DNA from: Vibrio astriarenae
GTDB lineage: Bacteria > Pseudomonadota > Gammaproteobacteria > Enterobacterales > Vibrionaceae
Assembly: GCF_010587385.1 (NCBI RefSeq)
Contig: NZ_CP047475.1
Coordinates: forward strand, 806,001-870,000
Direction: 5' to 3'
DNA: 64,000 nucleotides
Under the pieces are notes generated by a model that did no database searches, was not told the origin of the DNA, and was given only the letters and a program-made list of their open reading frames with translations. Made by a program: the position numbers and the translations under genes. This document shows, one piece after another, positions 40,489 to 45,016 of the stretch. Each line of letters starts with the position of its first letter. Position 1 is the stretch's first letter.

Positions 40489-41235
40489 GTGAGAGTGTTT
40501 AATCAGTTAAAACAGATGCTTTTCGCTTGTGGGAACAGCTTTAAAGACCTCTTGCCTATTATCATTGTTGTGGCGTTCTTTCAGCTTGTGGTCTTGCAGC
40601 AACCGTTACCGAATCTTTTTGATATTTCAGTTGGATTAATTTTTGTTGTCGTCGGTTTAACCTTCTTCATCTTTGGATTAGAGCTTGGGCTATTCTCTAT
40701 TGGAGAGTCGATGGCGCAAGCATTTGCGAGAAAAGGATCGGTGATGTGGTTGCTGGTTTTTTCGTTTTGTCTGGGCTTTGGTACGACCATCGCAGAGCCT
40801 GCGTTAACCGCCGTCACAAGTGAAGCCGCTCTGGTCGCTGCTAAGGGTGGAATGATCGCTGACAATACGGAATCAATGCATCGCTATGCTTACAGCCTAA
40901 AAACAACCGTTGCTTTCTCTGTTGGACTGGCGTTGGTGGTGGGTGTGTTGCGCATTCTCAAGGGGTGGGCCATTCAACACATGATCATTGGTGGGTACTT
41001 GCTGGTGGTTCTACTGACCTTTTTTGCACCGCGCGAGATTATTGGTATCGCTTATGACTCGGGAGGTGTGACAACCTCAACCATCACTGTACCTCTTGTG
41101 ACGGCACTGGGCGTTGGCCTGTCTTCTTCGATTAAAGGTCGCAGCCCCATGGTAGATGGTTTTGGATTGATCGCTTTTGCTTCTTTACTTCCAATGATGT
41201 TTGTCATGGTATTTGGCATGGTAGTGAGCCTATGA
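40489..41235 (+). CDS. DUF1538 membrane protein, first of a pair (UmpA-like)
   Basis: Integral membrane protein of 248 residues with about seven hydrophobic segments. Two related motifs sit in the two halves: [11 protein letters not shown] (near residue 100) and [12 protein letters not shown] (near 190), followed by the DUF1538 block [17 protein letters not shown]. The start is GTG at 40489, with a second GTG two codons on. From memory, a DUF1538 pair in Halomonas (UmpAB) was reported as a Na+(Li+,K+)/H+ antiporter needing both subunits. First gene of a four-gene operon. Confidence 0.88.
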
Positions 41236-41248
41236 TGAGAGCCTCAAT

Positions 41249-42040
41249 ATGATCGCCTTATCCAATATTTCAGAGACATTTTTATCGACGCTCAAAGACA
41301 CATTACCGATCGTCACCATTCTCTTTGCGTTTCAGTTTTTCGTTCTCAAAAAGTCTGTGCCAAGGTTGCCACAGGTACTCATCGGCTTTGTGTATGTGTT
41401 AATTGGATTGACTCTATTTCTTATCGGACTGGAAGCAGCGCTCTTTCCTCTTGGTGACATGATGGCTATTCAGCTCACTTCTGTCAGTTTCTTAGAGCAA
41501 TCACGAATAAGCCAATTCGGTGGATTGCAATGGTATGACTACTACTGGGTCTATCTGTTTGCCTTTTGTATCGGGTTCAGCACCACTATCGCTGAACCGT
41601 CTCTGATTGCTGTCGCGATTAAAGCTAATCAGGTCTCAGCGGGTGCGATTCGAATTAATGGCCTTCGAGTTGCGGTTGCGTTGGGTGTGGCTTGCGGTAT
41701 CGCGCTGGGAAGTTATCGAATCGTCGTTGGTGATCCTATTCACTACTACATCATTACTGGTTATTGCGTGGTTGTGGTTCAGACGCGTTTTTCGCCGTCA
41801 ATGATTGTGCCTTTGGCTTATGACTCTGGAGGGGTCACCACATCAACGGTGACGGTGCCGCTGGTGGCAGCGCTGGGGTTAGGATTGGCATCGACAGTGC
41901 CTGGGCGTAGCCCTTTAATCGATGGGTTTGGTCTTATCGCTTTCGCGAGCTTATTTCCGATGATTTCAGTTATGGGGTATGCACAACTGACACAGTGGTT
42001 GGTCAATCGAACTCAGAAAAGGAGTGATCATGAGGTTTAA
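41249..42040 (+). CDS. DUF1538 membrane protein, second of the pair (UmpB-like)
   Basis: Paralogue of the preceding gene, 263 residues, with the same two motifs: GFSTTIAEPSL (near residue 113) and GGVTTSTVTVPL (near 195), then [17 protein letters not shown]. It lies 13 nt after its partner. Its stop overlaps the start of the PII-like gene by 11 nt, which couples transporter and regulator. The two subunits probably form a heteromer; ion specificity is not readable. Confidence 0.88.
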   Translation: MIALSNISETFLSTLKDTLPIVTILFAFQFFVLKKSVPRLPQVLIGFVYVLIGLTLFLIGLEAALFPLGDMMAIQLTSVSFLEQSRISQFGGLQWYDYYWVYLFAFCIGFSTTIAEPSLIAVAIKANQVSAGAIRINGLRVAVALGVACGIALGSYRIVVGDPIHYYIITGYCVVVVQTRFSPSMIVPLAYDSGGVTTSTVTVPLVAALGLGLASTVPGRSPLIDGFGLIAFASLFPMISVMGYAQLTQWLVNRTQKRSDHEV

Positions 42041-42380
42041 ACTGATATTGGCATTTGTTGAGGACAGCAGAACGGAGGCTGTTCTGGATGCGGCAAGAGA
42101 TTCAGGAGCAACAGGGGCAACTGTGATCAACAATGCCCGAGGTGAAGGCTTGAGTAAGAAACGCACCTTTTTTGGTTTGACGTTAGATGCGCAAAATGAT
42201 GTCTTGTTGTTTGTCGTTGAAGAGCATCTTTCGCGCCACATACTAGAAAAAATCGCAGAAGTTGGGGAGTTCGACTCGGAATCAGGGCAGGGGATTGCGG
42301 TCCAAATTGATGTAGAAGATGCCGTTGGAGTCAGTCACCAAGTCGCTTCACTAACAAAAATCGTTGAAGATGAATTATAG
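42030..42380 (+). CDS. PII-like signalling protein (GlnB superfamily)
   Basis: 116 residues from the ATG at 42030, with AAAAGGAG upstream and inside the end of the second DUF1538 gene. The pattern of GlnB-type proteins is visible: FKLILAFVEDSRTEAVLDAA, then GATGATVINNARGEG, a short T-loop-like stretch (SKKRTFFGLTLD) and the second core strand-helix unit ending in IAVQIDVEDAVGV. The T-loop lacks the uridylylated Tyr-51 of GlnB. It probably binds a nucleotide and controls the adjacent transporter; ligand unknown. Confidence 0.82.
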   Translation: MRFKLILAFVEDSRTEAVLDAARDSGATGATVINNARGEGLSKKRTFFGLTLDAQNDVLLFVVEEHLSRHILEKIAEVGEFDSESGQGIAVQIDVEDAVGVSHQVASLTKIVEDEL

Positions 42381-42392
42381 GGAGCATTGAGC

Positions 42393-42800
42393 ATGTTAGA
42401 GGGCAGAAAAATACGCGTGAGTGATGTTATGGCGAATACGTATGTAATGATTGATGGCCTTGCCACCGTGCAAGATGGTATTAACCTGGCGAGAAAACAT
42501 CAGGTTAAAGCCTTGATTGTGCAAAAACGCCACGACGATGATGAATATGGCATTGTATTGATGAACGATATTGCTAAGAAGGTGCTAGCAAGTAATCGCT
42601 CACCGCAGCGTACCAATATCTACGAGATTATGACCAAGCCCGCACTGTCGGTTTCTCCGGGCATGAATGTGAAATATTGTGCGCGCCTTTTTGAGCGGTT
42701 TGGCATCAGTCGCGCACCAGTGATTGAAGGGCAACAAGTGGTCGGAATGGTGAGTTACAACAATATAGTGATCAATGGAATGGCGACTGAGAGTGACTAA
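42393..42800 (+). CDS. CBS-domain-pair protein
   Basis: 135 residues from the ATG at 42393 (GGGAG upstream). It consists of only two CBS domains: VSDVMANTYVMIDG ... GIVLMNDIAKK (about 8-65) and YEIMTKPALSVSPGM ... GISRAPVIEGQQVVGMVS (about 72-130). CBS pairs usually sense AMP, ATP or S-adenosyl ligands. Standing last in the DUF1538-DUF1538-PII operon, it is likely a second regulator of the same transporter. Confidence 0.9.
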   Translation: MLEGRKIRVSDVMANTYVMIDGLATVQDGINLARKHQVKALIVQKRHDDDEYGIVLMNDIAKKVLASNRSPQRTNIYEIMTKPALSVSPGMNVKYCARLFERFGISRAPVIEGQQVVGMVSYNNIVINGMATESD

Positions 42801-43623: not shown

Positions 43624-44139
43624 TTAATGTGAGAAAAGTACCGTAGAGCCGTGGCTCAAACTCGTTAGTAGTAGAGACTTTTCGTTAACCACATCAATGC
43701 GACGGCTCTGTTGCGCGTTCATTTTGAACACCTGGGTGAGGATATCGAGCTGCTCGTCACTAAAATCTGTCATGTGCGGTGTTGTCATATTCTTAAACTC
43801 GGTTGGCGAGATTAGCAGATAGTTGTCACTGATGTCCCAATAACCGTGCTCAGAAATGTTCATTGTTACGACCGAATCAATGTCGTGACCGTAAAACTTT
43901 ACTTTAGAGACGCGAATGTAGTTGCCGTTCGGTAAGTACTTCACATTAGCGGTCATTTCAGCGCGCTCTAAAGGGCCCCAAGTCAGTTCCTCTAAGTCTT
44001 GAGAGATAAGCGAGACGTTGTGAGACTGCCACTCCTTTGAAGTCAAGATTTGCTCGAGTTTCAGGTCACTTGTCCAGTAGAGCCAGCTACTCACGGCAGC
44101 CGAAATAGCCAGCAGAATGGCTGCATGTTTTTGCTTCAT
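43624..44139 (-). CDS. toxS: ToxS, periplasmic effector of ToxR
   Basis: 171 residues: one N-terminal membrane helix (about 6-24) followed by a periplasmic domain. In V. cholerae ToxS binds and protects the ToxR periplasmic domain and helps sense bile. It starts 13 nt after the toxR stop, as in other vibrios. Lengths and order are normal. Confidence 0.94.
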   Translation of the reverse strand: MKQKHAAILLAISAAVSSWLYWTSDLKLEQILTSKEWQSHNVSLISQDLEELTWGPLERAEMTANVKYLPNGNYIRVSKVKFYGHDIDSVVTMNISEHGYWDISDNYLLISPTEFKNMTTPHMTDFSDEQLDILTQVFKMNAQQSRRIDVVNEKSLLLTSLSHGSTVLFSH

Positions 44140-44152
44140 TCTTGTTAACTCC

Positions 44153-45016
44153 TTACTCGCAAACTTTGGTTAAACTCGTTGGATCGGATACGAGTTGTTG
44201 AGAATAGCTAGACCCCGAGTCATTTTCTGGGTGAATGTAGTTCAGAACTAAGTAGTTATTCTGGCCGCCAGTAGCAATGACTTTGATCGGTGTGCTTGCC
44301 TCTTGAGCAATGCGGTTATTCGTGTAGCGAGAGACACACTGTTCGATAGACGGCAGCCATACCTCTAATTCAGGGTGATTAATTGGCGTCAGCACGACGG
44401 TATCTTCAAAGATACCGAGTTCACGGAAGTGTTGGTCTTCGGGTGCTTTACCGAAAATAGCTAAAAGGGGCAGAATCAAAGCAACGGCCAACATCGCATA
44501 AGTAACCCATGCTGGGTAGCTATTTTCTGTGGTTGTTTCTTGCTGCGCAACGATGTCACTCGACGAGCTAGCAACCTGAGAAATATGGCTCTCTTCTTCG
44601 GAGGCTGACTCAATAGAATTGACAGCAACTTCCGGCTCTTCTTCAACTTCTACTGCTGATGTACCTGCGAGTGTGTTGTATTCTTCAACAGTAGAAATCA
44701 GTTGATAACCGCGCTTTGGCACCGTTTTTACAAACTCTGGATTTTTTGTAGGGTCTTTTAAGAGCTTTCTTAGTGTTGAAATAGCTTGAGTTAGACTAGA
44801 GTCATCGACCTCAAAGCCTTGCTCACGCCAAACATACTCATGCAGTTCAGTACGAGTGACCACTTCATTTGGGCGTTGAGCAAGTAAAAGCAAGATACGG
44901 CTTTCATTGCTACCCAGACGAATGTTCTCTTCTGTAGACTGCTCAAGTAGTGAGTTGTTGTTAGGATCAAACAGAAACTTGTTTGCGAGGACAAACTTGT
45001 TACCTAAATTACTCAT
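44153..45016 (-). CDS. toxR: Membrane transcription regulator ToxR
   Basis: 287 residues. An N-terminal OmpR-type winged helix (about 1-115) includes RLGSNESRIL and EVDDSSLTQAISTLRKLLKD; a variable acidic linker follows, then one membrane helix (about 171-188) and a periplasmic domain with two cysteines (IEQCVSRY and the C-terminal KVCE) that form a disulfide in V. cholerae ToxR. It regulates porins and virulence genes. Divergent from htpG. Confidence 0.97.
   Translation of the reverse strand: MSNLGNKFVLANKFLFDPNNNSLLEQSTEENIRLGSNESRILLLLAQRPNEVVTRTELHEYVWREQGFEVDDSSLTQAISTLRKLLKDPTKNPEFVKTVPKRGYQLISTVEEYNTLAGTSAVEVEEEPEVAVNSIESASEEESHISQVASSSSDIVAQQETTTENSYPAWVTYAMLAVALILPLLAIFGKAPEDQHFRELGIFEDTVVLTPINHPELEVWLPSIEQCVSRYTNNRIAQEASTPIKVIATGGQNNYLVLNYIHPENDSGSSYSQQLVSDPTSLTKVCE

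Follow-up and report, generated by a model that had tools for sequence, protein, structure and literature searches.

Four genes lie in tight succession on the plus strand of the window, the 64,000-nucleotide stretch of the Vibrio astriarenae genome that was analyzed here. The first, at 40489-41235, begins with GTG and encodes an umpA-like DUF1538 membrane protein of 248 aa (PF07556, 224.7 bits). A second GTG at 40495 offers an alternative start that would give 246 aa, and the nearest database entry, P0001, is 246 aa long and 99% identical; the nearest named relatives are from Vibrio, with V. astriarenae entries at 86% identity. After a gap of 13 nt comes the gene for an umpB-like DUF1538 membrane protein (41249-42040, 263 aa; PF07556, 223.2 bits), which overlaps by 11 nt a gene for a PII-superfamily protein (42030-42380, 116 aa; P-II, 41.2 bits). 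A gap of 12 nt precedes the fourth gene, at 42393-42800, whose 135-aa product consists of two CBS domains (PF00571, 56.2 bits over two stretches); a TTG at 42387 is a possible alternative start. The Pfam cut-offs are 22.6 bits for DUF1538, 25 for P-II and 24 for CBS. The reading frames, their spacing and the description of the products as two paralogous membrane proteins, a GlnB-fold protein and a protein of just two CBS domains, all given in an earlier note on this DNA, were thus reproduced. No DUF1538 locus other than the pair at 40489-42040 was found in a search of the whole V. astriarenae genome (4.8 Mb, 2 contigs).

A YfcE-type phosphodiesterase gene lies 113 nt downstream of the CBS gene, and a divergent ORF lies upstream of the umpA-like gene. 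Because these two groups recur in just 21 and 25 of 161 surveyed loci (a set that includes the best 80 of 592 named loci), we place both outside the conserved unit. Further downstream, on the minus strand at 43624-45016, are two genes, one for ToxS (190 bits by Pfam) and the other for a product that bears the Trans_reg_C DNA-binding domain and that we take to resemble ToxR.

The two membrane proteins are 44% identical to each other over 241 columns. Scores of 368.5 bits against NCBIfam UmpA (NF041627) and 349.3 bits against UmpB (NF041628) fall under the equivalog cut-offs of 490 and 500, and we therefore file the pair as UmpAB-like rather than as UmpAB equivalogs. Neither protein matched CPA antiporter domains (Na_H_Exchanger or Mrp-type Pfam families) at E <= 1. 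That a DUF1538 pair can act as a cation/proton antiporter, as the earlier note mentioned, is published for UmpAB of Halomonas zhaodongensis, which allows an E. coli deficient in antiporters to tolerate salt again and forms a heterodimer by co-immunoprecipitation (PMC5484666). The reported K0.5 values at pH 9.0 are 0.26 mM for Na+, 0.46 mM for Li+ and 0.41 mM for K+, with an alkaline optimum (PMC5484666). In an independent model, DUF1538 is listed among the 20 top Pfam features that predict growth pH (PMC13255231). Like the V. astriarenae proteins, the Halomonas proteins are paired (mutual identity 43%, as against 44% here) and have seven predicted helices each (PMC5484666). The V. astriarenae pair differs in not reaching the equivalog cut-offs. 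A further difference is that Halomonas UmpAB was studied apart from PII or CBS genes: the fragment that worked in E. coli has neither among its listed ORFs, and the words PII, P-II and CBS do not occur in the main text of that paper (PMC5484666). Since the fragment as described was active with neither gene, the PII and CBS proteins would modulate the activity rather than make it; by analogy with Halomonas, each is dispensable for transport itself.

Orientation of the two proteins in the membrane was predicted from the charge of their loops, with helix limits taken from the predicted model of a natural fusion, P0241, which is of modest confidence (pLDDT 69.1) and was read as seven helices per half. 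For 131 loci with exactly two DUF1538 ORFs of 180-400 aa (drawn from a set that includes the best 80 of 592 named loci), the net charge of the even loops exceeded that of the odd loops in all 131 first genes, and the reverse held in all 131 second genes. Counting K and R alone gave the same bias in 123 of 131 first genes (7 ties, 1 reverse) and in 131/131 second genes. The expected bias in net charge was also seen within fused proteins: in 117 first and 119 second halves of 119 database proteins, in 10 and 11 halves of the 11 shorter locus proteins, and in 15 and 14 halves of the 16 longer ones. By the positive-inside rule, this opposite bias suggests that the two DUF1538 proteins form antiparallel halves; it also fits an odd number of helices and the direct fusion of the two genes. 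The available text of the UmpAB paper does not describe an opposite orientation (PMC5484666). One database protein, P0242 (759 aa, from a single short contig), carries three DUF1538 domains in tandem.

The PII-like protein belongs to the PII superfamily both by its P-II Pfam score and by a predicted model that is clearly of PII fold, and its profile matched solved PII structures weakly (best 9p1x, E 1.9e-07). Canonical PII proteins use Tyr51 for uridylylation and a set of further residues for ATP and 2-oxoglutarate. Among 30 aligned members of the PII-like group, Tyr51, Lys58, Lys90, Arg101 and Arg103 are retained in none and Gln39 in one, and all 30 are 5 residues shorter between canonical positions 37 and 62; each of the 30 has glycine at the positions corresponding to Gly35, Gly37 and Gly89. 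The protein thus falls outside canonical GlnB/GlnK, and we found no NCBIfam name for its subfamily. V. astriarenae has three P-II genes, and the other two retain all canonical residues compared. Because the residues for uridylylation, ATP and 2-oxoglutarate are missing, classic nitrogen gating, one of the two controls that the earlier note had suggested, is unlikely.

The CBS protein has the two CBS domains of a CBS-pair adenylate sensor. In such pairs the ribose motif is (T/S)xx(N/D). Across 133 members (drawn from a set including the best 80 of 592 named loci), the second repeat has S121 in 102 and D or N at 124 in 108; in the first repeat D59 occurs in 126, yet the residue three positions earlier is L in 97. 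Of the two ribose motifs usual in such proteins, one looks intact. The protein may sense adenylates. Its best sequence match among solved structures, over residues 8-128, is the cyanobacterial CBS-CP12 protein (5nmu, E 8.5e-27), which is reported to bind AMP (PMC9406205). The likeness is in the CBS part alone, where the V. astriarenae protein stops, and the gene context differs.

Occurrence of the genes was surveyed in partly overlapping samples of 80 genomes of the genus, 185 of the class and 150 of the phylum. The PII type was scored by profile A2 (E <= 1e-5) and CBS by profile A3 (E <= 1e-35, genus sample). In the genus, DUF1538, PII and CBS are all present in the same 62 genomes and all absent from the other 18. 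Two frames in this sample, that of DUF1538 in G360:C107 and that of PII in G325:C55, have internal stops within the match; both genomes are 4-5% contaminated, so these are possibly assembly errors. In the class, DUF1538 occurs in 58/185 genomes and the PII type in all 58, 57 of them by profile; in the last, G144, the gene adjoining DUF1538 encodes 384 aa that include three PII-like segments. The profile matched 59 class genomes, including two with no DUF1538 match: G098, where the contig ends 120 nt from the PII gene, which is followed by CBS, and G176, where the PII match is weak (26.3 bits). In the phylum, DUF1538 occurs in 67/150 genomes and the PII type in 77, covering all 67; the remaining ten comprise four strong matches (103-140 bits; G203, G292, G304 and G320) and six weak ones (27-36 bits). 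A search of 14 control genomes, including E. coli, found no DUF1538. This survey argues that the grouping of DUF1538 with PII and CBS is not due to chance.

Gene order was analyzed in 163 clusters from the best 80 of 592 confirmed named loci, 80 genome stretches (covering, with overlap, 52 of the 58 DUF1538 genomes in the class sample and 21 of the 67 in the phylum sample) and the V. astriarenae locus. In this set, with its best 80 of 592 named loci, a PII gene is near DUF1538 in 162/163 clusters, on the same strand and within 2.5 kb in 161; in L162 it lies between two DUF1538 genes, and L164 is the sole cluster of the set with no PII. By the same 2.5-kb rule, CBS accompanies 137/163 (one CBS gene, in L201, counted twice), and in 114/133 cases the PII frame shares 4 nt with the CBS frame. 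The fixed co-occurrence for which the earlier note had proposed a survey thus stood for PII, which is present in every sampled genome with DUF1538, and did not stand for CBS. Other neighbors are far rarer, the commonest groups reaching at most 25 of 161 loci (8 representatives identified).

Outside this set, the four genes are consecutive in three class genomes (G087, G123 and G153), PII adjoins a DUF1538 fragment in G038, and G033 has parts of the cluster at contig ends. In G032, PII and CBS are on a separate contig from DUF1538, behind transposase-like and M48 peptidase genes; in G122, which was counted as adjacent, a transposase gene intervenes and umpB and PII are 1.4 kb apart. In the phylum sample, coordinates compared by eye placed PII directly beside DUF1538 in 64/67 genomes. 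A contig break runs through the cluster in G295, where PII follows a DUF1538 end fragment, and in G261 and G291 PII and CBS are located away from DUF1538. Four more DUF1538 clusters (L272-L275) have no neighboring PII; two of them, L272 and L273, are additional DUF1538 pairs. In L262, at 1277-1926, a PII gene immediately follows a 99-aa DUF1538 remnant.

Four architectures were seen: the split pair followed by PII and CBS; a fused DUF1538 protein of ~500 aa with PII and CBS; a fused protein of ~600 aa with no CBS, accompanied by two PII genes in 13/15 cases; and the split pair with PII but no CBS. The remaining two ~600-aa forms each adjoin one long multi-PII protein, with three PII-like segments in a single chain in L185 (7159-8313) and two in L190 (335-1525); three segments per chain would fit a PII trimer. 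One locus, L201 (4996-9187), has a fused DUF1538, PII, CBS, a second PII and a split DUF1538 pair in series. A tblastn search of a plasmid collection found DUF1538 in 9 records, of which 7 were examined. In five of these, which come from Clostridia, an ORF of 217-305 aa follows a fused DUF1538; two PII segments were detected in this ORF in four records and one in L233. The remaining two are alphaproteobacterial and carry a PII gene alongside a pair of DUF1538 genes, of which the first is short in L236. CBS genes were not detected in any of the 7 plasmid stretches. Because the architectures that lack CBS keep PII, we regard PII as the core partner and CBS as a frequent addition.

Strong copies of the PII type sit with DUF1538 throughout the genus sample, and likewise in the class, except where a cluster is split or lies at a contig edge. 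That the type is exclusive to DUF1538, as the class sample had suggested, was ruled out by solo copies in the phylum sample, which occur both in the four genomes with a strong PII match and no DUF1538 match and, as additional copies, in other genomes. DUF1538 is absent from the stretch fetched around eleven such copies (L252-L257, L259-L260, L265-L266 and L269), whose neighbors include argB (L260, L265), dusB-ntrC (L265) and a glutamate-cysteine ligase gene (L269); the PII type could thus serve other targets too.

Taken together, the cluster probably encodes a two-part membrane ion exchanger, and its partner genes suggest that the exchanger is switchable. We put at about 0.6 the probability that the operon encodes an UmpAB-type monovalent cation/proton antiporter with its own PII-like and, where present, CBS regulators. 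The antiport part is drawn by analogy from one published relative, Halomonas UmpAB, and the regulatory part from linkage, fold and precedent. Two homologous seven-helix proteins, inserted in opposite orientations, would form one pseudo-twofold exchanger that imports H+ as it exports Na+ or K+. The PII-like protein would dock on the cytoplasmic side of the exchanger, in the simplest case as a trimer, and throttle it according to a cytoplasmic ligand different from the ATP/2-oxoglutarate pair of canonical PII. The CBS protein, possibly an AMP-type adenylate sensor, would add control by energy state in many Proteobacteria.

Sequestration of GlnK by AmtB doubles as signalling, and the membrane pair might similarly be a sensor that recruits the PII-like protein, whose true target (an enzyme, a kinase or transcription control) would be elsewhere. 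In keeping with this, some families have solo copies close to argB and dusB-ntrC, known territory of classic PII proteins, but strong solo copies occur in the phylum sample only, and we consider such a role unlikely. To our knowledge, just one DUF1538 member has been assayed. It came from a screen whose authors describe several of the hits, umpAB among them, as non-specific antiporter genes (PMC5484666), so the natural substrate might be another small ion, with the rescue of E. coli from salt a side activity; however, the sub-millimolar apparent affinities and alkaline optimum given for UmpAB (PMC5484666), and the association with pH in an independent data set (PMC13255231), make this quite unlikely. 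Closure of the exchanger by nitrogen state, through a canonical PII protein that reads ATP/2-oxoglutarate and is uridylylated, would agree with the Pfam P-II matches and with named relatives labelled P-II family nitrogen regulator, but is very improbable given the five canonical residues absent from all 30 members, Gln39 kept in one, and the shortened 37-62 stretch.

An antiporter with its own PII-like regulator would resemble SbtA-SbtB and AmtB-GlnK, in which a membrane transporter is paired with a PII-superfamily protein (PMC10710835). It would differ from them in its transporter family, in a PII subfamily that lacks the canonical residues, in the extra CBS protein, and in a transporter reported for Halomonas as a heterodimer rather than a trimer (PMC5484666). 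No report of linkage between DUF1538 and PII or CBS was found in the open-access literature searched, as far as its available text goes. More tentatively, and at slightly less than an even chance, widespread DUF1538 exchangers of two antiparallel seven-helix halves, under the control of a non-canonical PII protein of their own and, in part of the Proteobacteria, of a CBS adenylate sensor, would be the first PII-controlled cation/proton antiporters, and non-trimeric ones. If the antiporter reading is true, PII signalling would extend to ion and pH balance, a function would be found for this PII subfamily, and four small genes would make the gating of an antiporter by metabolites testable.
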